A stretch of DNA of 50,878 nucleotides from Synechococcus sp. BO 8801 (GTDB lineage Bacteria > Cyanobacteriota > Cyanobacteriia > PCC-6307 > Cyanobiaceae). The notes below the pieces were generated by a model. It was not told the origin of the DNA. It made no database searches and saw nothing but the letters and a program-made list of their open reading frames with translations. Shown piece after piece: positions 18,412 through 40,230 of this stretch (positions within the stretch are counted from its first letter, which is position 1; each line of letters starts with the position of its first letter). The stretch spans positions 1 to 50,878 of the forward strand of contig NZ_NQKY01000021.1 in the NCBI RefSeq assembly GCF_002252675.1, given 5' to 3'. A program made the translations under genes and the position numbers.

Positions 18412-18454
18412 TTGGGAAGGGCCCTTCCAGGCCCCATGGGTCATTTGGGTGACA
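18411..18454. repeat. Left attachment-site repeat
   Basis: Matches 29667-29710 at 40 of 44 positions, with a 22-bp exact core at 18433-18454 that begins CCCATGGGTCATTTGGGTGA. It includes a hairpin (GGGCC/GGCCC, 18419-18434) equivalent to the ssrA terminator at the other end. It is the displaced copy of the tmRNA 3' end. Confidence 0.85.
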
Positions 18455-18549
18455 CAGATTCACGAAGCCAGGGCCCATCACGAGAACCTAGTGCTAGCAC
18501 GGGATTCAGGGGAGTCCCATGGAGTCTGGGGTAAGCTGAGAGAAGGATT

Positions 18550-18569
18550 TTGCACACGGCTTGCACACA
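18550..18569. promoter_or_regulatory. Candidate integrase arm-binding site, left
   Basis: TTGCACACGGCTTGCACACA is a tandem pair of TTGCACAC with an 11-bp period, inside the left end and 117 bp from the att core. It is matched at 18 of 20 positions by the site at 29599-29618. Lies just upstream of the integrase ATG, so it could also regulate that gene. Confidence 0.55.
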
Positions 18570-18592
18570 TCTGGTGTGATCCCCTCTCCTCC

Positions 18593-19807
18593 ATGCCTGC
18601 CGCCCGTTACACCAAGCCGTGGGAGATCGGCTTCCGAGGTGCCGCGAAGGTGGCGACTGGCTGGACGGTGAGCCCACATCGAGGGAAAATCCGGCTCCAG
18701 GTCCGTCGTGCCGGCCAGCGGGCAGAGGGGGTGGTGCTGCCGCTGGAGTGGGCTCCGGCATCGGTCAACCCAGCACTTCAGCTCATCGGAAGGATCTACA
18801 AGCTCGTGGCCAGCAATCGGGAGACGCTTAGGAGCGCCTTGGCGATCACACTGGGGCAGAGCGACACCATGGCCCCGTCCACTGACTGGGAGGCCATCGC
18901 TGCCAGCTTGCGCGATGCCCTGCAGAACGGGCGCAACGAAATCCGCCTGCAGACCTGGAGAAGCAACTACGCCCCGTACATCGAAGAAGCCATTCGCCAG
19001 CTCACCGGCACCAAACCGCCTGTGGATGGGCATGAACTCCTTCGTCGCACCTTGGTGCGGTGGAGCGGCAAGCCTCCGAGCCGGGCCGCTTGCTGCATCG
19101 CCTTACGGAACCTGACCGACCACGCCGTAGCTAGACACCATCAACCGAGCTGCTGGAGGATTAGCGCGGTCAGCATCAAAGAGTTGCGTGGCCGACCAGC
19201 TGCAAAACGGATCAAGGCAACGCTTGAGGACAGGGAGCTGCTTGACCTAATCGAGGCCATCGAGGCGCGCAATCCGGAATGGTCCAACGTGCTCCGCCTG
19301 CTTACGCTCTACGGCCTGCGCCCAGTGGAGCTCCAGCACTTGGCCGCAAAGATTGATGAAGGCGGAACATTGCGGCTTTGGTGCAGCTACCGCAAAACAT
19401 GCGGCGCCCAGATGACGGAGCCCCGCTGGTTAATGGCATGCCCACTGAAAGACCGGATCGGCAGCATGGTGGAGTGGAATCTTGCCGGGGCACTGGATGC
19501 CGACCTGCTTGAACTTCCACGAGGGTCTGATGGCGGCTTGGCAATGCTTGATGGGCACTACGTGGAGAAGTACCTGGCCCGACAGCCTGAATGGCGCAAA
19601 CTAAGGGAGCAGTACGAAGCGCGAGGAGAATGGTTACGCCCTTATACCTTCCGCGACAGCTACAGCCTGCGCTGCCACCGCTATGGGGTGGAAGTAGGTG
19701 CCGTAGCGATGGCCATGGGACACAGCCTGGCAGTCCACTCCAGCAGTTATCGCTGGGCATCTGATAAAACAACAGCTGCCGCTTTCGAAGCAGCCTTTAA
19801 GAAATGA
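18593..19807 (+). CDS. int: Tyrosine recombinase (integrase)
   Basis: Integrase of 404 aa. Box I is LTLYGLRPVELQHL (Arg243). Box II is FRDSYSLRCHRYG...AMGHSLAVHSSSYRW with Arg360, His377 and nucleophile Tyr386. The position normally held by His in HxxR is Tyr357 (YSLR). The N-terminal part (1-180) should hold arm- and core-binding domains. The ATG at 18593 was chosen; the same frame stays open back to a GTG at 18449 inside the attachment core. It should catalyse integration and excision between attP and the ssrA 3' end. No Shine-Dalgarno sequence is evident. Confidence 0.88.
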   Translation: MPAARYTKPWEIGFRGAAKVATGWTVSPHRGKIRLQVRRAGQRAEGVVLPLEWAPASVNPALQLIGRIYKLVASNRETLRSALAITLGQSDTMAPSTDWEAIAASLRDALQNGRNEIRLQTWRSNYAPYIEEAIRQLTGTKPPVDGHELLRRTLVRWSGKPPSRAACCIALRNLTDHAVARHHQPSCWRISAVSIKELRGRPAAKRIKATLEDRELLDLIEAIEARNPEWSNVLRLLTLYGLRPVELQHLAAKIDEGGTLRLWCSYRKTCGAQMTEPRWLMACPLKDRIGSMVEWNLAGALDADLLELPRGSDGGLAMLDGHYVEKYLARQPEWRKLREQYEARGEWLRPYTFRDSYSLRCHRYGVEVGAVAMAMGHSLAVHSSSYRWASDKTTAAAFEAAFKK

Positions 19808-24569: not shown

Positions 24570-25025
24570 TCAGTCCTCACCGTGGGGAAGACCGCGTACC
24601 CAGCTCCCGCTAGGTGGCGATGCTGCAGGCGGGGTCACGTTGACGGTCTGGAACCGCACTGGCTGAGGAGGTGGGGGATCAAACAGACCGCAAAGCCTGG
24701 CCTGCGCGTTGATGGCGCCCAAGCAAACGGCGAGGTTGCCATCGTGCAGTGCTCTGAGCTGAAGCACGGACAACGCAGAAAGCAGCTGGGATAGAAGTTG
24801 CTGCCTATCAATCTGCCAGTCATCGATGATGATCTGGCGGGCGTCAGCGATGAGCCGATCGCATGATCTAACCGGCATCCCCCAGTTATCCGAAGCAAAC
24901 CGAAGCACCTGCTGGCGGGTCTTTCCGCTGATCAGCATGGTTGCGATCTCCTGCGCACGGGAGAGGCGCAGGGCCTGAGTCGGTCTGTCCCTCCCCCCCT
25001 CAAGGTTGCCGCTGGCTGCCGTCAC
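24570..25025 (-). CDS. Terminase small-subunit-like protein
   Basis: Protein of 151 aa. The N-terminal HTH region (LRLSRAQEIATMLISGKTRQ, QVLRFASDNWGMPVRSCDRL, IADARQIIIDDW) is followed by a central helical domain (RQQLLSQLLSALSVLQLRAL, NLAVCLGAINAQARLCGLF), the layout of phage small terminase subunits that recognise pac/cos DNA. The C-terminus is Pro-rich. The GTG start overlaps the upstream stop (GTGA). With no large subunit or capsid genes in the element, a satellite-style TerS that redirects a helper's packaging is plausible. A generic HTH regulator is the alternative. Confidence 0.5.
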   Translation of the reverse strand: MTAASGNLEGGRDRPTQALRLSRAQEIATMLISGKTRQQVLRFASDNWGMPVRSCDRLIADARQIIIDDWQIDRQQLLSQLLSALSVLQLRALHDGNLAVCLGAINAQARLCGLFDPPPPQPVRFQTVNVTPPAASPPSGSWVRGLPHGED

Positions 25026-25989: not shown

Positions 25990-26181
25990 TCAGAGGGCAG
26001 CGGGGTCATCGATGCCCAACTTGCGCTTGAGCTCAGCGAAGCGATGGGCGCTTGCCCGCTGCGCCATCGCAGGCGGGTGACCGCAGGCGAGGCCCACGGC
26101 CATGAGGCCGTCGCGCTCGATCGCCTGGTGCAGGCGGCGCAGGCCATCAGGGCTCATTTCGTACTGATCGGCGACGGTCAT
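25990..26181 (-). CDS. Small hypothetical protein
   Basis: Protein of 63 aa from the ATG at 26181, MTVADQYEMSPDGLRRLHQA, then IERDGLMAVGLACGHPPAMA and FAELKRKLGIDDPAAL. First gene after the long regulatory gap. Longer in-frame sequence upstream is open but looks non-coding and contains a direct repeat, so the internal ATG was preferred. A DNA-binding helix pattern is possible but not clear. Confidence 0.5.
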   Translation of the reverse strand: MTVADQYEMSPDGLRRLHQAIERDGLMAVGLACGHPPAMAQRASAHRFAELKRKLGIDDPAAL

Positions 26182-26456
26182 CGGCTTGGGAGGTTCTGGC
26201 CCAGCCTTCCGGCGACTGGCACACCTGGGGGCGAGTCTCAACAAGGACAGAGCTTCAGGGGCCTGATCTTGGACACGAATCACACGATGAGACGGGAAAC
26301 GGGCCGATTTCGGCGGGGATGAGACGCCCGGATCGTGGCTGCAGCTGGGGCGACTGGCACACCAGCGGCGGATCATCTGTGTTCTGCGCAGGTTGGCGGC
26401 AGGCACTTGGCCAAGCCGATCTCCTCGCGGGTATCAGGAGGAGACTCTCCATAAAC
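26182..26456. other. Regulatory gap with 15-bp direct repeats
   Basis: No convincing gene. Two identical 15-bp copies of GGCGACTGGCACACC lie at 26211-26225 and 26349-26363 in the same orientation, 138 bp apart. The stretch separates the symmetric GGTTG array from the small-gene operon, and probably holds that operon's promoter on the minus strand. Confidence 0.5.
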
Positions 26457-26609
26457 GGTTGATCTGGTTGGATCCCCTGCACTGGAATGGATCTGGTGGT
26501 TGCTGAAAGTGGTTGGCGATGGTTGGCGTAGTTGGGGTTCCAACCGTCACCAACCGCCTACTCCAACCGGGAGAACCCTTGTAGCAACTGCGCTCCAACC
26601 AGTTCAACC
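26457..26609. repeat. Mirror-symmetric array of ten GGTTG sites (candidate replication origin)
   Basis: Five GGTTG sites begin at 26457, 26466, 26498, 26511 and 26521. Five inverted CAACC sites end at 26545, 26555, 26568, 26600 and 26609. Each pair sums to 53066, so spacings 9-32-13-10 mirror exactly as 10-13-32-9 about position 26533, while the DNA between sites is not conserved. It lies directly downstream of the RepA-like gene. Such iteron-like dyads are typical of initiator-bound origins, and a role as the element's origin is inferred. Confidence 0.7.
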
Positions 26610-26614
26610 ACTTT

Positions 26615-27973
26615 TCAGCCATCTGCCCCTGTAAGCGCACCAGGGCGGATGGTGTAGACGGTCGTGCCGTACGCCTTCCCTTGCTTCAACAGGCCCTTCC
26701 TCACCATCGCCCAGCACTGCTTACGGATCAGCTCCACCTGCGGCTTGGTGGGGGCGTCCGTGTTGTACACGATCAGGGCGATCTGGCGGACGGCGGCCCC
26801 CTTCGGATCAGCGATCGCACCGATTGCTTCAAGCACCTGCCGCTGTTGCTCCGTCAGCGCCTGGACCGTTTCTGCCTGCCGCTCATCCGCCAGCAGCTCC
26901 GCTATGGCCTTCTGGTACTCCCCGACCACCTCGAAGGTGCCCCGCTCGAAGTCCCCACGGATCAGCAGATCCTGGAAGGGCGCCCGCCCCTCAACCACCA
27001 TCCGGCGGTGGGGGTTCTCTTTGTCGGCGATCCAGACCTTCTTCATCGGACACCGCTTCTCCATGAAGTGCAGGGAGATGCAGGCAGACACGGCGCCGCC
27101 AGCAGAGCCATGGCCACGGATGGCCTGGATGCCGATAGGCCCGGTGTCCTTCGGCGAGTGGAACAGGCATACGTGCGTGACGCCATAGGGCGCCAGCAGG
27201 GTCTGCACGTCGATGAGGGCACCGCCGGCCTCCGGTTCCTGATCGCTCCCGTAGATCCGCTGGATCGAGTGGAAGAACGAATCCGTGATCAGGACCAGCC
27301 CCGGTTCCGCTGCCGCGTGCTCCAGCAGGAGGTCCGCCCCAGCGTCGTCCCAAGCCAAGTCGTCCTCCTCCGTGTAGAGGCGGACAATCTGCGGGTGCAG
27401 CGTCCCATCAGGCTCCATCAGGCCCACGGAGCGCAGATAGGCGGCTGAATCAGCAGCGGGCTGGTCTACCCACCACAACAGGATGCGATGGGGCCCTGGG
27501 GCCACAGGAAAGCGCCCCATCAGCGGGCGGCCAAAGATCAGGTCTGCAGCGAGGCGGGCAGCGAGCTTGGTCTTGCCCACCTTGTTGTACGCCGCGATGC
27601 CGGTCAGGCATCCCTTAGCGATCAGGCCATCCACGAGCCACTGCTTCTCCGTGATCCGCGCCTTCTCCCCCCCGGCGGTGCCCTTCTCCGCGTCACCCAT
27701 CACCATGGCGCGTTGGATCTGAAGGATCCGCTGTCGCGTCTGCGATGGGGATACACGGAGTCCAAGCTCCCCGGCCAGCGTGGCGGCCTTGATCTGCCGT
27801 CGGATGCTGTTTCTTTCGTGACTCGGGTGCGCCGGGTCGAGCATGGATCGGATGACCGCTTCCCACTGGTCGATGGGTGCCAAGTCTTGCGCTGACGGCA
27901 AGGCATGCACCGTCGCCAGTTGTTGTGCCTCCTCCACCGCCAACCTGGCCAGTTCTGGGTCCCAGACGGTCAT
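26615..27973 (-). CDS. RepA-like AAA/RecA-fold ATPase (replication helicase type)
   Basis: Protein of 452 aa. Walker A AAYNKVGKTKL (Lys134, Thr135) is preceded by ITEKQWLVDGLIAKGCLTGI, and Walker B is GLVLITDSF (about 226-233). HVCLFHSPKD and the Gly-rich HGSAGGAVSA follow as further RecA-fold motifs. This is the AAA_25/RepA-type helicase layout found in plasmids and phage satellites. The C-terminal 100 residues form a winged-helix-like tail (LTEQQRQVLEAIGAIADPKG...VRKGLLKQGKAYGTTVYTI). The ATG overlaps the stop of the zinc-protein gene (ATGA). It probably acts at the adjacent GGTTG array. Confidence 0.75.
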   Translation of the reverse strand: MTVWDPELARLAVEEAQQLATVHALPSAQDLAPIDQWEAVIRSMLDPAHPSHERNSIRRQIKAATLAGELGLRVSPSQTRQRILQIQRAMVMGDAEKGTAGGEKARITEKQWLVDGLIAKGCLTGIAAYNKVGKTKLAARLAADLIFGRPLMGRFPVAPGPHRILLWWVDQPAADSAAYLRSVGLMEPDGTLHPQIVRLYTEEDDLAWDDAGADLLLEHAAAEPGLVLITDSFFHSIQRIYGSDQEPEAGGALIDVQTLLAPYGVTHVCLFHSPKDTGPIGIQAIRGHGSAGGAVSACISLHFMEKRCPMKKVWIADKENPHRRMVVEGRAPFQDLLIRGDFERGTFEVVGEYQKAIAELLADERQAETVQALTEQQRQVLEAIGAIADPKGAAVRQIALIVYNTDAPTKPQVELIRKQCWAMVRKGLLKQGKAYGTTVYTIRPGALTGADG

Positions 27974-28698
27974 GGCCGTGCCTCCGCCGTTCGGGGCAGG
28001 TCAAGCTCATACAGCGCCAGCACGATCAAATCCTGCGGTTCGTATGGCCCCATGTCTGGGGGTGGCGGGTCGGGCTCGCCCTCTGGCAACTGAGGTGACC
28101 CGGACGAATAAACGCTCAACCGGTATCCCCATGACGTTGCCCAGCGGTCGGCGTCGGCCGCCTGATACGCCAGCTCACGGTGCTTCCCCAGCAACCACAC
28201 CTGGAACTGCTCCAGCGCCGCGTGCCCTTTCGCCATGGCCGCCAGCTGGGGCAACATCCCTGCGGCCTCCTTCAGCGCCAGCTGGATAAGCTGATGCACC
28301 TCCGGGAACTCGTCATCACGCAGGTGATCAAACGGCGGTACCGCCAGCGCCTGCTCAATCAGCGGCATCAGCACCGGGATCTTCCCGGCGACGATCTCAG
28401 CCTGCGAGCGCTGCACTCTGAGGCGTTGCGACCGTGGAAGATGCTGGTGTTGTTCATGCAGCCGGAACTGCCCCCAGCCATCTGCATCGCCGAGAAAGGC
28501 CCATTCCTGGCCATCTGCGCCAGGTCCGTGCTCACCTTTGCGACATGCCCAGGTAGGAGGGGCGTAGGTGCTTCCTCTCCAGCACAGAACCAGGCCGCTA
28601 GGGGTGACCCTGCATGAGGTGTCATGTGTGCGGCCGCAGACCGCGCACGCGCTTTGGCGACTGCTAACGATCCAGCCGCCACTTGGAGAAGCCGCCAT
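27970..28698 (-). CDS. Zinc-binding replication-associated protein (primase-like N-terminus)
   Basis: Protein of 242 aa. The N-terminus has CAVCGRTHDTSCRVTPSGLVLC, a likely zinc ribbon (Cys18, Cys21, Cys29 or His25, Cys39) like those at the start of phage and plasmid primases and DNA-recognition modules. WGQFRLHEQHQHLP follows. The rest is helical with a Pro-rich, acidic C-terminus. No catalytic TOPRIM or AEP motif is evident, so it may only load or target DNA. Its ATG overlaps the upstream stop (TGATG) and its stop overlaps the RepA-like start. Confidence 0.6.
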   Translation of the reverse strand: MAASPSGGWIVSSRQSACAVCGRTHDTSCRVTPSGLVLCWRGSTYAPPTWACRKGEHGPGADGQEWAFLGDADGWGQFRLHEQHQHLPRSQRLRVQRSQAEIVAGKIPVLMPLIEQALAVPPFDHLRDDEFPEVHQLIQLALKEAAGMLPQLAAMAKGHAALEQFQVWLLGKHRELAYQAADADRWATSWGYRLSVYSSGSPQLPEGEPDPPPPDMGPYEPQDLIVLALYELDLPRTAEARP

Positions 28699-28973
28699 CA
28701 GCGCAGCCCCCCTGCGGCCTTGGAGAGCTCCTCCCGGCTGAATGCTTCAACGGAAGCGGGGTCCACCCGGTTGAAATCCGTGAAGGCTGCTTCACAACGA
28801 TCACCATGCCACTGGAAAGGTGCACGGGTTGTCAGACCGCCCCTTCGGTAGTGAGTTCCTTCGAGAAAGGGATTGAACGGGGCAGCTCGAAGACGAAGAA
28901 GGGTCTTGGGGTGAACGCCGAGACGACCCGCCATTTCGGCGGTATCGAGCCACGGCTCGGGGCATGGGCGCAT
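28698..28973 (-). CDS. HTH DNA-binding protein (excisionase/MerR-like)
   Basis: Protein of 91 aa, RPCPEPWLDTAEMAGRLGVH followed by PKTLLRLRAAPFNPFLEGTH. The segment WLDTAEMAGRLGVHPKTLLRLR is a typical winged-HTH/excisionase recognition helix. FEWH-like residues and an Asp/Glu-rich helix complete it. Start at the ATG at 28973 (a GTG sits one codon earlier). It heads the replication operon and could be the excisionase or operon regulator. The palindrome at 28988-29007 lies 15 bp upstream. Confidence 0.65.
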   Translation of the reverse strand: MRPCPEPWLDTAEMAGRLGVHPKTLLRLRAAPFNPFLEGTHYRRGGLTTRAPFQWHGDRCEAAFTDFNRVDPASVEAFSREELSKAAGGLR

Positions 28974-28987
28974 CACGAAGTCTCACG

Positions 28988-29041: not shown

Positions 29042-29554
29042 TCAGGGACTGGCCAAAACGCCACGCACCCACGAAGCATGCTTCGAGAGAAGGAAGCGCT
29101 GCATCAGCCGCTCGGCGGTGGAGTCTCCAAGCTCCTTGCGGACCATCTTTACGTACCAGAGGAATTCATCTCGATTTCTGCCCCGGATTGCCCTCCGTAA
29201 GGCATCTGGAGGATCCCAGCCAAGGAATCCAGCATCTAGACATTCTTCAACAGGGGTCAGCTTTGCTTCCTGGAGTCTGCCCCTCATCCGTCTGACCATC
29301 TCAGGCGTTAAGCGCTTCCCAGAAGACGTTCGACAACCTGCTGCGAAGAGGTCTTGACTCAGTGCAGCAAGACTCTTGCCCTCCCCCTGCTCAAGCACCT
29401 CTCGGTAAATGAGCGCCTTCGTGACTGCTTGATGGTGAGACTTCTGGTTTTCCTCTTCACGTGCAGGCCGAAGACCGCCAAGGGACACACCACGTGCGGC
29501 CGCCCGCCGCAGCCCCCGGCGGATGCTTGCCCCGTGTTCCTCAGGAATCTGCAT
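29042..29554 (-). CDS. Serine-recombinase-like C-terminal domain protein without a catalytic domain
   Basis: Protein of 170 aa from the ATG at 29554, preceded by a strong GGGAGGAG ribosome-binding site. Residues EEHGASIRRGLRRAAARGVS resemble the end of the catalytic domain and helix E of serine recombinases (xxxRxGLxxAxARGVxLG). KSLAALSQDLFAAGCRTSSG and KRLTPEMVRRMRGRL resemble the following DNA-binding domain (LAxxLNxxGxxTxxGxxWTxxxVxRIL). The N-terminal Ser nucleophile region is absent. It may be a DNA-binding accessory or recombination-directionality protein. First minus-strand gene inside the right end. Confidence 0.5.
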   Translation of the reverse strand: MQIPEEHGASIRRGLRRAAARGVSLGGLRPAREEENQKSHHQAVTKALIYREVLEQGEGKSLAALSQDLFAAGCRTSSGKRLTPEMVRRMRGRLQEAKLTPVEECLDAGFLGWDPPDALRRAIRGRNRDEFLWYVKMVRKELGDSTAERLMQRFLLSKHASWVRGVLASP

Positions 29555-29598
29555 TGACAGCACTCCTCCCAAGAGAAGATCGGGGCCCAAGGGACCAC

Positions 29599-29618
29599 TT
29601 GCACACGATTTGCACACA
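29599..29618. promoter_or_regulatory. Candidate integrase arm-binding site, right
   Basis: TTGCACACGATTTGCACACA differs at two positions from the left-end copy at 18550-18569 and has the same + strand orientation. It lies 71-90 bp inside the right att core and about 50 bp upstream of the recombinase-like gene. Confidence 0.55.
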
Positions 29619-29666
29619 ACGCCCAAAACAAGATGCTGTGAGACGACCAAGACCGCCGGCTGGGCC

Positions 29667-29710
29667 ATTGAAAAGGCCCCTTCCAGGGCCCATGGGTCAT
29701 TTGGGTGACA
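29667..29710. repeat. Right attachment-site repeat (ssrA 3' end)
   Basis: Copy of the 44-bp attachment repeat that forms the end of the tmRNA coding piece and its terminator. The exact 22-bp core is 29689-29710. Relative to the left copy, the two differences inside the hairpin are paired, a C-G to G-C exchange between 29677 and 29688, so the stem is preserved in both. Confidence 0.85.
29671..29690 (-). terminator. ssrA transcription terminator
   Basis: On the minus strand GGCCC-TGGAAG-GGGCC is followed by TTTT, a short intrinsic terminator directly after the tmRNA coding piece. It is part of the attachment repeat, so the element restores a terminator on insertion. Confidence 0.65.
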
Positions 29711-29865
29711 AGGCTGACCTCACCCCGTCTCCGTTAAGAGTGTCAGGCAGCCACGGGGGCGGCTTGACGGGAGAAACGAACGATGTTGTTCGCTGTTACG
29801 GGTTCGCTCTTACCGAGCAGGCTTCAGTCACCCTCCTCATGCCCCGTCGAAACCATTGCAGCCCC
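29690..29865 (-). ncRNA. ssrA: tmRNA coding piece (permuted two-piece ssrA)
   Basis: The minus strand begins GGGGCTGCAATGGTTTCGAC, the 5' acceptor-stem strand and hallmark start of tmRNA. It contains the resume ORF at 29793-29743, which encodes ANNIVRFSRQAAPVAA and a stop. This closely matches picocyanobacterial tags. GGGGCTG pairs with CAGCTCC of the acceptor piece. tmRNA and SmpB rescue stalled ribosomes and tag the nascent peptide for proteolysis. The mature 3' end (near 29690) is approximate and lies in the attachment repeat. Confidence 0.92.
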
Positions 29866-29904
29866 GGGATGACGCACCGCCGGGGGGGCGGTGGGTCGGG
29901 GGAA
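29866..29904 (-). other. Intervening segment of the permuted ssrA precursor
   Basis: The 39 nt between acceptor and coding pieces are expected to be removed during processing, as in other permuted tmRNAs. GC-rich, with a C-run and G-run that could fold. Confidence 0.6.
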
Positions 29905-29998
29905 TGGAGCTGAGCGGAATCGAACCGCTGTCCGAGACACTGGTGTGGACCACCTAGTTCGTCCGAAGACGAGCTTGTTCATCCTGCCACCTCCCCGC
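29905..29998 (-). ncRNA. ssrA: tmRNA acceptor piece (permuted two-piece ssrA)
   Basis: The minus strand ends GGACAGCGGTTCGATTCCGC followed by TCAGCTCCA, a T-arm with GGTTCGATTCC, the acceptor strand CAGCTCC and discriminator A. CCA is not encoded. It is transcribed before the coding piece, so the gene is circularly permuted as in alpha-proteobacteria and marine-clade Synechococcus/Prochlorococcus. The upstream end near 29998 is an estimate. Divergent from the RlmL-like gene. Confidence 0.88.
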
Positions 29999-36621: not shown

Positions 36622-39600
36622 TTGGTTCACATCAATCAGGTCGAGCTCACCCACTTCAAGTCCTTCGGCGGGTCGATGACCATCCCGCTGGAGGAGGGCT
36701 TCACGGTGGTGACGGGCCCGAACGGCTCCGGCAAGAGCAACATCCTTGACGCGGTGCTCTTCTGCCTCGGCCTGGCCACCAGCCGCGGGATGCGGGCCGA
36801 GCGGCTCCCCGACCTGATCAACAGCGCCGTGCTGCGGGAGGGGAAGGCCGCCGAGACCAGCGTCACCGTGCGCTTCGACCTGGGCGACTGGCAGCCGGAC
36901 AGCGCAGAGGACGGCCTGGACGTCCCCGAACAGGGCCCCTGGCTGCAGCGGGGCCAGCGGGAGTGGAGCGTCACCCGGCGGCTGCGGGTGGCCCCCGGCG
37001 GCACCTACAGCAGCAGCTTCAGCGCCGATGGGGTGCCCTGCAACCTGCAGCAGCTGCAGACCCAGCTGCGGCGCCTGCGGGTCGACCCGGAGGGCAGCAA
37101 CGTCGTCATGCAGGGCGACGTCACCCGCATCGTCTCGATGAGCGCCCGCGACCGGCGCGGCATCATCGATGAGCTGGCCGGCGTGGCCCTGTTCGACTCC
37201 CGCATCGAGCAGAGCCGGGGCAAGCTCGACGAGGTGGTCGAACGGCAGGAGCGCTGCCGCATCGTCGAGCAGGAACTGCTGGCGGCCCGCCAGAAGCTCG
37301 AACGCGACTGCGCCAAGGCGCGCACCTACCAGGAGCTGCGGGAGCGCCTGCACCAGGGGCGCCTGCACGAGCAGGTGCTGGCCTGGGAGGAGGCCCGCAC
37401 CCACGGCCTGGCCCTGGCCGGTCGCCTGGAAAGCCTCGACCGCCAGCAGGAGCAGGAGCGGGAGGCGATCGTCGCCGGCGAAGCCGAGGTGGTCGCCGCC
37501 GCCGCCGCCCTCGAGCAGCTGCAGGCGGAGGTGAAGACCCTGGGCGAAGACCAGCTGCTGGCGGTGCAGGCCGAACTGGCCGGTCTGGAAACCAGTGGCC
37601 GTGAGCTGGCCCGCCAGGCGGAGCTCCATGGCCAGCAGGCCGAGGAGCTGCAGCGCCGCCGCCAGCAGCTGCAGCAGAACCAGGCGGAGCTGCGCCGGCA
37701 GCAGCAGGCCCTCGGTGAGCGGGCCGACGACGGCGCCATCGACCGCGCCGAGGCCCTCTGCCGCGACGCCGAAGCGGCGGTGGAGCTCTCCCGGCGTCGC
37801 CTCGGGGAGGTGGCCGGACGTTCCGGCAGCTGGCTGGAGGAGCAGCAGGAGCGCAGCCGCCGGCGCCAGGAGCTGCAGGAGCGGCTCGCCCCCCTGCTGG
37901 CCGAACGCCAGCAGCTGGAGGAACGGCTGCGGCAGGCGGGTGAACGGCTCGAGGAGCTGGGCGGTGAGGAGCTCCAGGAGGACGCGGCCCATGGGGAGGC
38001 CGCCGCCGCCCTGGCGGCCCTGGCGGAGCAGGAGCGCAGCCTGCGGGCCGCCCTGGAGGAACGCCAGGAGCAGGCCCGGGAGCTGGCCGAGGCCGTGGCG
38101 CTGCAGCAGCGCACCCGCGTGCGGCTGGAGCAGGAGCAGACCAGCCTGGAGCGGGACATCGCCCGCCTCGACAGCCGCCGCGAGACCCTGCAGGAGAGCC
38201 GCGGCACCGGCGCCCTGCGCCTGCTGCTGGAGGCGGGGCTGGAGGGGATCCACGGCTCGGTGGCCCAGCTGGGCGAGGTGGAGGAGCGGCTGCGGGTGGC
38301 CCTGGAGGTGGCGGCGGGGGGGCGCCTGGCCCAGGTGGTGGTGGAGGACGACCGCATCGCCGCCCGGGCGATCGAGCTGCTCAAGAGCCGCCGCGCCGGC
38401 CGCCTCACCTTCCTGCCCCTCAACCGCATCCGCGGTGGCAGTGGTGGCTCGGGGGGGGCGGCCCTGCAGCGGGGCAGCGCCGGCGGCAGTGGCGGGGCCG
38501 GAGGCCTGGTGGGGCGGGCGGTGGATCTGATCCGCCACGAGCCCGTCTACGCCGACGTGTTCCGCTACGTCTTCGGTGACACGCTGGTGTTCGCCACCCT
38601 CGCCGACGCCCGCCGGGAACTGGGCCGCTGCCGGGCCGTGACGCTGGAGGGGGAACTGCTGGAGAAGAGCGGCGCCATGACCGGCGGCAGCCTGCAGCAG
38701 CGCTCGGGCCAGCTGGGCTTCGGCCGCAGCGGCGACGGCGATGAGGCCGAGCCGCTGCGGCAGCGGCTGCTGGAGCTGGGGGAGAGCCTGCTGGCCTGCC
38801 GCCGCCGTGAAGCCGAGCTGGGCCGGAGCCTGGAGGAGGTCCGGCCGGGCCTGCTGGAGCTGCAGCAGCGCCAGGCCGCCCTCCAGGCCGAGCGCAGCGC
38901 CGCCGAGCGCACCCTGGCCCCGCGGCAGCAGCGCCGCGACCAGGTGGCCGGCCGGCGGCGGCAGCTGCAGGAGGCCCACCAGGCCGACCGCGGCCGGATG
39001 GGGGTACTCGAGCAGACCCTGCCGCCCCTGCGCCAGGCCCTGGCGGAACTGGAGGAGGCCGAGCGCGCCGCCAGCGGCAACGACGACAGTGCCCGCTGGC
39101 AGGGGCTCCAGGGTGAGCTGGAGCGGGCCGACCGGGCCCTGGTGGAGGCCCGGCGCCAGCGGGACGACCTGGAGGCGGAACGGCGTGACCGGGCCCTGGG
39201 GGCGGAGCGGCTGGGCAGCCAGCTGGAGGCCCTCGCCGGGGAGGAACGGCGGCTGGTGGAGGCGGTGCAGGCCCTGGTGGCCGAGCGCCAGCTCTGGAAA
39301 GAACGCCACCAGGCGGAGCAGGAGCGCCGCACCCTGCTGGAGCGCCAGCAGAGCGAGCTGCAGACCCGCTTCGGCGAACGGCGCCGCGCCCGCGACGGGG
39401 CCGAAGCCCACCTGGCCGGCCGGCGCCAGGCCCTGCAGCAGCGCCAGTGGGAGCTGCAGCGGCGCCAGGAGGAGCGGCTGGCCCTGGCCGAAGAGCAGCG
39501 CAGCCACGGCCTGCGGCTGGCCCAGATGGAACGGGAGCTGCCCGACCCACGCCCCGGGCTGCCCGAGGAGGTGCGCGAGGCCGGCCTGGAGGCGCTGCAG

Positions 39601-40230
39601 CAGAGTCTGCGCAGCCTGCAGCAGCGCATGGAGGCGCTCGAGCCGGTCAATATGCTCGCCCTCGAGGAGCTGGAGCAGCTGGAGCAGCGGCTGGCCGACC
39701 TGGACGACCGCCTGGAGGTGCTCAGCAAGGAGCGGGAGGAGCTGCTGCTGCGGATCGAGACCGTGGCCACCCTGCGCCAGGAGGCCTTCATGGAGGCGTT
39801 CCGGGCCGTCGACGGCCATTTCCAGACGATCTTCGCCGGCCTCTCCGACGGCGAGGGCCACCTGCAGCTGGAGAACCCCGAGCAGCCCCTGGAGGGCGGC
39901 CTGACCCTGGTGGCCCACCCCAAGGGCAAGGCGGTGCGGCGGCTGGCCTCGATGTCGGGTGGTGAGAAATCCCTGACCGCCCTCAGCTTCCTGTTCGCCC
40001 TGCAGCGCTTCCGTCCCTCGCCCTTTTATGCCCTCGACGAAGTCGACAGCTTCCTGGACGGGGTGAACGTCGAGCGGCTGGCGGCCCTGATCGCCGCCCA
40101 GGCGCACCAGGCCCAGTTCATGGTCGTCAGTCACCGCCGGCCGATGATCGCCGCGGCCACCCGCACCATCGGCGTCACCCAGGCCCGCGGCTCCCATACC
40201 CAGGTGGTCGGTTTGCCGCCGGCGGCCTGA
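36622..40230 (+). CDS. smc: Chromosome segregation SMC protein
   Basis: Protein of 1202 aa. The N-terminal head has GPNGSGKSNILDAVLFCLG (Walker A). Long coiled coils (about 170-500 and 690-1020) flank a hinge around 520-660 (GIHGSVAQLGEVEERLRVAL, EPVYADVFRYVFGDTLVFAT). The C-terminal head has MSGGEKSLTALSFLFALQRF and PFYALDEVDSFLD. It loops chromosomal DNA with ScpA/ScpB, whose genes are not in the window. Start is TTG at 36622, giving VHINQVELTHFKSFGG, the usual N-terminus. The hinge carries a Gly/Ser-rich insertion (GGSGGSGGAALQRGSAGGSG). Confidence 0.95.
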   Translation: MVHINQVELTHFKSFGGSMTIPLEEGFTVVTGPNGSGKSNILDAVLFCLGLATSRGMRAERLPDLINSAVLREGKAAETSVTVRFDLGDWQPDSAEDGLDVPEQGPWLQRGQREWSVTRRLRVAPGGTYSSSFSADGVPCNLQQLQTQLRRLRVDPEGSNVVMQGDVTRIVSMSARDRRGIIDELAGVALFDSRIEQSRGKLDEVVERQERCRIVEQELLAARQKLERDCAKARTYQELRERLHQGRLHEQVLAWEEARTHGLALAGRLESLDRQQEQEREAIVAGEAEVVAAAAALEQLQAEVKTLGEDQLLAVQAELAGLETSGRELARQAELHGQQAEELQRRRQQLQQNQAELRRQQQALGERADDGAIDRAEALCRDAEAAVELSRRRLGEVAGRSGSWLEEQQERSRRRQELQERLAPLLAERQQLEERLRQAGERLEELGGEELQEDAAHGEAAAALAALAEQERSLRAALEERQEQARELAEAVALQQRTRVRLEQEQTSLERDIARLDSRRETLQESRGTGALRLLLEAGLEGIHGSVAQLGEVEERLRVALEVAAGGRLAQVVVEDDRIAARAIELLKSRRAGRLTFLPLNRIRGGSGGSGGAALQRGSAGGSGGAGGLVGRAVDLIRHEPVYADVFRYVFGDTLVFATLADARRELGRCRAVTLEGELLEKSGAMTGGSLQQRSGQLGFGRSGDGDEAEPLRQRLLELGESLLACRRREAELGRSLEEVRPGLLELQQRQAALQAERSAAERTLAPRQQRRDQVAGRRRQLQEAHQADRGRMGVLEQTLPPLRQALAELEEAERAASGNDDSARWQGLQGELERADRALVEARRQRDDLEAERRDRALGAERLGSQLEALAGEERRLVEAVQALVAERQLWKERHQAEQERRTLLERQQSELQTRFGERRRARDGAEAHLAGRRQALQQRQWELQRRQEERLALAEEQRSHGLRLAQMERELPDPRPGLPEEVREAGLEALQQSLRSLQQRMEALEPVNMLALEELEQLEQRLADLDDRLEVLSKEREELLLRIETVATLRQEAFMEAFRAVDGHFQTIFAGLSDGEGHLQLENPEQPLEGGLTLVAHPKGKAVRRLASMSGGEKSLTALSFLFALQRFRPSPFYALDEVDSFLDGVNVERLAALIAAQAHQAQFMVVSHRRPMIAAATRTIGVTQARGSHTQVVGLPPAA

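Follow-up and report, generated by a model that had tools for sequence, protein, structure and literature searches.

The window, by which we mean the whole 50,878-bp stretch of DNA analysed here, is a contig of the 3.27-Mb genome of Synechococcus sp. BO 8801 (70% G+C). An island of lower G+C content lies between 18.4 and 29.7 kb and is bounded by a 22-bp direct repeat. The genes and boundary features of the island on which this analysis draws are the following.

18433-18454, forward strand: left copy of the 22-bp direct repeat CCCATGGGTCATTTGGGTGACA, a probable att site, overlapping the start of the integrase-like ORF
18449-19807, forward strand: tyrosine-recombinase-like integrase (phrog_1, E=7.7e-6; NF040815, E=0.0017, far below cut-off)
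26615-27973, reverse strand: RepA-like AAA_25 protein, 452 aa (Pfam PF13481, E=5e-15)
27970-28698, reverse strand: 242-aa protein with a zinc-ribbon-like CxxC...C...C start (cysteines found by eye), overlapping the start of the AAA_25 gene
28698-28976, reverse strand: HTH or excisionase-like protein, 92 aa (PF12728, E=0.0041, below cut-off; phrog_66, E=0.067)
29675-29990, reverse strand: tmRNA gene, the probable integration target (Rfam RF01851, 299 bits)
29689-29710, forward strand: right copy of CCCATGGGTCATTTGGGTGACA, a probable att site, within one end of the tmRNA gene

The integrase-like ORF has no Pfam family. Recombinase types differ between the window, which has a tyrosine type, and the related elements L034, L003 and L002 described below, which have a serine type. 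In the ORF adjoining the tmRNA gene (29042-29668) the serine "Recombinase" domain scores weakly (E 0.07, below cut-off); this ORF might be what is left of a large serine recombinase such as the relatives have. The gene at 24570-25025 matches phrog_34910 (function unknown), as does its relative in L003, through which it is linked to a gene of L002.

Directly downstream of the AAA_25 gene lies an array of ten copies of a 5-bp motif arranged in two facing arms.

26457-26525, forward strand: distal arm, GGTTG starting at 26457, 26466, 26498, 26511 and 26521 (spacing 9-32-13-10)
26471-26497, reverse strand: sequence filling the 32-bp gap in the distal arm, reading ACCAGATCCATTCCAGTGCAGGGGATC on the gene strand
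26541-26609, reverse strand: proximal arm, CAACC ending at 26545, 26555, 26568, 26600 and 26609 (same spacing, mirrored)

An earlier note on this DNA, made from the sequence alone, had described ten mirror-paired sites downstream of a RepA-like gene. Recomputing the motif positions returned its coordinates exactly, with every pair summing to 53066, and 5 bp separate the array from the end of the AAA_25 ORF at 26615. Its remark that the sequence between the sites differs on the two sides is mostly right, yet mirrored spacer positions still agree at 23 of 51 (45%), compared with 25 of 25 within the sites. The distal arm has a possible sixth site, AGTTG at 26530, that lacks a mirror partner; no additional GGTTG or CAACC occurs in 26400-26700, the nearest being the GGTTG at 26391. 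The centre of the array (26526-26540) has 9 of 15 G+C positions and is not AT-rich, and the next same-strand ORF of at least 80 aa past the array spans 25990-26406. A 20-bp direct repeat that starts GGCGACTGGCACACC lies beside the array (26211-26230 and 26349-26368, 90% identical).

The array is the densest GGTTG/CAACC cluster of the window, with 10 sites in 200 bp against 4 at the best place elsewhere (49061). When all 5-mers sharing one mirror centre within 220 bp were scanned across the 50.9-kb window, its 5 mirror pairs were the unique maximum; the sole other place with four pairs (TGCAG/CTGCA, 39434-39620) is made of CTGCAG palindromes. First-order Markov sequences of the length of the window (n=40) reached no more than 3 pairs. 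A scan that excluded palindromic words and allowed a span of 260 bp gave three 3-pair events in the rest of the window; 400 kb sampled from nine related genomes as twenty 20-kb stretches gave, under the same settings, three 3-pair events and no 4-pair event. We calculate that the probability of two sets of four spacings, within ~65 bp, coinciding by chance is about 1 in 6 x 10^5. The mirror array in the window is not due to chance.

The AAA_25 protein combines two parts. Its AlphaFold2 model (13 sequences, pLDDT 74, pTM 0.61), which replaced an earlier, poor model from 3 sequences (pLDDT 39) that was set aside, has a RecA-type helicase core of the hexameric kind at residues ~100-365 and a predicted C-terminal winged helix at ~375-442 with the order helix-helix-helix-hairpin (H-H-H-beta-beta). 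The core resembles RepA of RSF1010 (1olo, Z 19.4, rmsd 4.1, 221 aligned residues; 1nlf, Z 19.2, rmsd 3.2, 219 aligned residues) as well as KaiC (top row, Z 19.5), DnaB and T7 gp4, and rows within 1 Z are taken as tied. The C-terminal domain has no significant Pfam match, so the label "winged helix" rests on the model, and PDB sequence searches returned spurious rows only, mostly Kelch-like. Such a combination, a helicase core with a predicted C-terminal winged helix, is what would be expected of a protein that reads sites of this kind.

The 242-aa zinc-ribbon-like protein could be matched to no family when Pfam, PHROGs, NCBIfam and PADLOC were searched; it occupies the position of the Prim-Pol gene of L003, and its cysteines were compared with the C-terminus of that Prim-Pol. 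It has no blastp counterpart in the four relatives, which makes it the weaker candidate reader of the sites. Primase-type domains are found with or next to the helicase in three relatives: L034 encodes Prim-Pol, PriCT_2 and AAA_25 fused in one 738-aa protein, a fused Prim-Pol is indicated for L002 by 61% identity over 737 aa, and L003 has a separate Prim-Pol gene directly upstream of AAA_25. No recognisable primase or Prim-Pol was found in the scanned ORFs of the window (Pfam, PHROGs and NCBIfam) or of L035.

Searches with the AAA_25 protein gave 2 loci in genome contigs and matches at E <= 0.001 in 77 of 400 genomes of the family, which were a sample of a larger group. Among all 42 genomes of the genus, the genome of the window alone matched at E <= 1e-40; two other genera (31 and 34 genomes) yielded 2 and 1 genomes with matches, all already known, and 386 phylum genomes yielded 2 at E <= 1e-25. 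Plasmids gave no match, and among phages S-CBS1 was the only one (26%, two records). After duplicate rows were dropped (L005 and L036 equal L002, L034 equals L004, L035 equals L006 and L114 equals L007), the close homologues with 51 to 60% identity came from four further elements, L002 (G301), L003, L004 (G186) and L006 (G277). AAA_25 is the only gene common to all five elements in a blastp comparison of ORFs (E <= 1e-5) over stretches of 9.4 to 17 kb. L003 is a contig binned as Planctomycetota (a MAG), and its helicase is 82% identical over 424 aa to that of the Synechococcus element L002; its label reflects either mis-binning or transfer across phyla.

The earlier note had proposed aligning the same region in homologous elements, and in all four close relatives the corresponding position holds an array whose arms are spaced alike. 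The arrays lie within ~110 bp downstream of the AAA_25 ORF in all five distinct elements, and the sites of the relatives read NGTTG/CAACN with the arm spacing 9-32-13-10, clearly in three of them and in degenerate form in L006. Measured from the mirror centre, the site offsets are 76, 67, 35, 22 and 12 in the window, 102, 93, 61, 48 and 28 in L003, and 64, 55, 23, 10, 0 and -10 in both L002 and L004, each of which has six NGTTG pairs. In the latter two the sixth site stands 10 bp further along the arm, and the arms overlap at the centre, where the inner sites form CAACNGTTG palindromes. L006 retains 3 exact mirror pairs on the grid of L002, its remaining filled positions being on one arm only. 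Relative to L002, the distance between the arms slides by 0, +24 or +76 bp while the inner spacing of each arm is fixed. The arms are thus rigid (9-32-13-10, then 10) and the distance between them is free.

The further claim that position and short motif are kept rather than general sequence is borne out by the same alignment: the GTTG core is present at 46 of the 50 grid positions in the ten arms, and the spacers of the window are 33 to 45% identical to those of each relative, against 25% in wrong registers. Spacers of the four relatives are 40 to 75% identical to one another, which in part reflects simple common descent. A one-arm pattern of five sites occurred in 3 of 400 family genomes, once per strand at the array locus, and its reversed control in none; it missed the degenerate array of G277. 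A four-site pattern run on 399 genomes of the order found the same three genomes and matches in G273 and G309 (reversed control, one); these two matches, on one strand each, were taken as chance. Also discarded were four stretches on three viral contigs that matched the five-site pattern on one strand each and contained no GGTTG array in the mirror scan: L037, L039 and L040 (tandem or low-complexity GTTG-rich repeats) and L038 (which holds GGTTGGGCAG-like repeats).

Additional elements surround the arrays. A second, partial forward copy (9-32) stands between the gene and the main array in L002, L003 and L004 and is absent in the window. In the same three relatives, boxes resembling CTATAT-GGAGA, seen by eye, flank the main array in opposite orientation ~26 to 27 nt beyond the outermost sites; they may belong to an unwinding element or a promoter. 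The filler of the 32-bp gap in the window, ACCAGATCCATTCCAGTGCAGGGGATC, aligns with an AGATC-n-GGG element of eight other AAA_25 loci that were chosen by eye, and 8 of the 58 columns are invariant across the nine sequences. Judged from this alignment, the sequence in this gap is not arbitrary; as a guess, the AGATC...GGG element might be a priming hairpin or a host-factor site.

The arrays do not appear to have arisen as coding sequence. The window array is crossed by no ORF of at least 80 aa and by one of 68 aa (26434-26640, reverse strand). Gene-strand ORFs do cross the arrays of L003 (107 aa), L002 (79 aa) and L034 (84 aa), the last two being 48% alike over 77 aa. We rejected a coding origin because none of the inner spacings (32, 13 and 10) is divisible by three, so that the reading frame shifts between sites, and because no ORF crosses the whole array in L006. 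The crossing ORFs are held to be by-products, and a conserved coding region, which the earlier note had named as the finding that would count against its reading, is unlikely.

Mirrored repeats were also sought at places with more distant AAA_25 genes. Of 90 such places, 81 were scanned and 9 left out, giving 82 loci (one of them a repeat) and 211,618 bp. At least three mirror pairs of some 5-mer were present at 11 loci, representing 10 distinct places, and at 0 of 820 shuffled loci. This count is weak by itself, because ~12 such events are expected over the distant loci at the rate of the window itself, though ~1.6 at the rate of the 400-kb control. Five distant places (L007, L010, L081, L089 and L103) have at least four pairs, and neither control has events of that size. 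The motifs vary and include GGTTC (two copies in G132), TGTCAC, GATTCC, GGACC, GCATC and CGGTTG (G002). G132, whose protein is 32% identical, has a mirrored 8-32-12 array in which GGTTC replaces GGTTG at mirrored sites, as is expected of sites read by one protein. Its two GGTTC arrays are L121 (G132:C34) and L114 (G132:C22). At the C34 copy the match is limited to the C-terminal winged-helix part of AAA_25, in a 109-aa open frame beside the array; this copy is possibly a decoy or a remnant.

Single-sequence searches of viral contigs with the proteins of the window and of L034 found no relative, and an alignment-based search found 13 distant ones. Three mirror pairs are present at 2 of these 13 loci, and at least 5 of 7 downstream regions inspected by eye have 9-bp repeats in both orientations. 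Hexamers repeated at a lag of 9 bp are in excess behind AAA_25 genes, with a capped count of 305 against 110 scaled from the control; two or more such repeats occur in 69 of 88 AAA_25 regions and in 151 of 440 control windows of 900 bp. At 7 of the 10 distant places with at least three pairs the array is contained in the 3'-terminal part of the ORF, where 9 bp correspond to three codons, and coding repeats are therefore a caveat there. The evidence from the distant loci is weaker than that from the close elements.

We consider that the array is probably the replication origin, an iteron region, of the 11.3-kb element inserted at the tmRNA gene, on which the AAA_25 helicase would load as two head-to-head oligomers. 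Each NGTTG site would be read by the C-terminal winged helix of one AAA_25 subunit, and each arm (9-32-13-10) would act as a rigid scaffold on which a single oligomer, probably hexameric, is seated. Independent oligomers predict that whole arms slide while their inner spacing stays fixed, and the arm displacements among the five elements fit one oligomer per arm. Because the arms face each other, two helicase oligomers would be loaded head-to-head; the opposed oligomers may then unwind the DNA for a primase, and bidirectional unwinding would begin after excision or induction of the element. The earlier note had favoured a replication origin or a nucleoprotein assembly site, and this interpretation is supported by anatomy and analogy, from which we infer binding, the number of hexamers, loading and origin activity. 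Several observations speak against an iteron origin: the degenerate array of L006 holds just 3 exact mirror pairs, the predicted winged helix has no significant Pfam match, the scanned ORFs of the window contain no recognisable primase, the window array lacks an AT-rich centre, and the folding results given below leave some room for a structural reading.

The main rival is a structural reading, in which the region acts as a cruciform or large stem-loop of the kind proposed for the origin of the crenarchaeal plasmid pRN1 and the sites are kept through mutual pairing instead of reading by a protein; we regard it as unlikely. According to PMC4234260, the primase-helicase-winged-helix protein of pRN1 uses as its origin a stem-loop of 100 bp that closely follows its gene. 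Four of the five arrays fold well as single-stranded DNA, with z-scores of -4.6 for the window (-4.7 for a longer stretch), -5.7 for L002, -5.2 for L004, -4.1 for L003 (part of the array) and -1.8 for L006, and complementarity of the spacers within an element is slightly above that across elements (mean 0.444 versus 0.376, sd 0.054). However, the motif of the sites is itself conserved, unlike in the pRN case, mirrored spacers agree at 41 to 59% only, and arms combined across elements are about as stable as an element's own (-38.4, sd 8.6, versus -40.7 kcal/mol, RNA parameters). Moreover, the arms of L002 and L004 overlap at the centre as CAACNGTTG palindromes, and several pairs are broken in L006.

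Three other functions would assign the array to a different process. It could control the downstream gene, as an operator or other regulatory region to which AAA_25 or a repressor of the element binds, in keeping with the same-strand ORF that follows the array in all five elements and with the HTH gene that follows it in L034, of which L035 has a weak relative. We think this very unlikely, given that different genes lie downstream in different elements, the AAA_25 gene being the constant neighbour of the array, that at least ten sites in two rigid arms exceed the usual operators, and that the array stands at the 3' end of the helicase operon and not at a promoter. A packaging (pac/cos) or partition site of an element resembling a phage satellite is highly improbable: the phrog_34910-type gene is common to the window (24570-25025), L003 and L002, and phage contigs with AAA_25 genes also have adjoining repeats, but blastp found no relative of that gene in L034 and L035, both of which have the array, and the link is to the helicase gene. 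Head-to-head sites are common at recombination loci, and serine recombinase genes are near by in L034, L003 and L002. That the array comprises resolvase res sites or accessory sites of an integrase is nevertheless scarcely credible, since the recombinase type differs (tyrosine in the window, serine in those three) and the probable att repeats lie at the ends of the element.

The array and AAA_25 form a natural minimal pair, a helicase with a predicted DNA-binding tail and a rigid ruler of sites, with which to ask by what mechanism a DnaB/RepA-type helicase can load on double-stranded DNA when no separate loader takes part. Natural versions at three arm distances make stoichiometry, the spacing rule and head-to-head loading testable, and if the origin reading is true the geometry of a single loaded helicase oligomer could be read directly from the array. 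The same reading would mark replication origins of picocyanobacterial islands and phages and offer possible vectors. Tentatively, we suggest as a real possibility that such islands and phages share a widespread and undescribed class of origin, comprising a helicase of the RepA/KaiC fold with its own winged helix, head-to-head iterons spaced by ~9 bp behind the gene or in its 3' end, and two opposed hexamers; in the subfamily of the window each arm would be a rigid six-site ruler (9-32-13-10-10) with the arm distance free. In the literature searched, with most subscription papers outside its scope, we recognised no description of these arrays.

Several known systems share parts of this arrangement. 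According to PMC7581432, SaPI Rep and SCCmec Cch2 each use a C-terminal domain to recognise repeats located immediately behind the gene that encodes them, SaPI Rep apparently as two hexamers. Like these islands, the present integrated elements have an array of repeats close behind the gene of the putative initiator helicase (5 of 5) in which one short sequence recurs many times (5+5 GGTTG sites for the window, six NGTTG pairs in L002 and L004), and the predicted H-H-H-beta-beta domain at residues 375-442 is a candidate C-terminal reading domain. They differ in that the staphylococcal helicases are, in the same paper, MCM-like or D5-type, whereas here the helicase is a RecA-type AAA_25 protein similar to RSF1010 RepA, DnaB and KaiC, and the sites form exact mirror arms with a fixed uneven spacing of 9-32-13-10. 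pRN1 likewise combines an AEP primase, a helicase and a C-terminal winged helix, in one protein, with an origin of ~100 bp just downstream of the gene, but according to PMC4234260 its helicase belongs to SF3 and its origin is a stem-loop without iterons, in contrast to the RecA-type core and the conserved motif and spacing found here. In the IncQ plasmid RSF1010 (RepA, RepB', RepC, oriV), a separate RepC reads the iterons according to PMC4234260, whereas the helicase described here seems, from its model, to carry its own winged helix. In the stretches compared, no gene besides AAA_25 is common to all five elements, though a host protein might still play the part of RepC. The likeness to RSF1010 lies in the helicase fold, for which KaiC rows tie, and in the primase-type partner of two relatives (fused in L034, separate in L003). 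The origin repeats of phage P4 occur in both orientations. PMC4234260 describes the P4 alpha protein as a primase-helicase initiator that acts at these repeats, a further likeness, and as having a primase of the TOPRIM type, which is a difference. An iteron origin behind the gene of an initiator helicase is a known arrangement; what seems unusual here is the mirror geometry, together with a helicase of the RepA/KaiC fold that seemingly has its own origin-reading domain.
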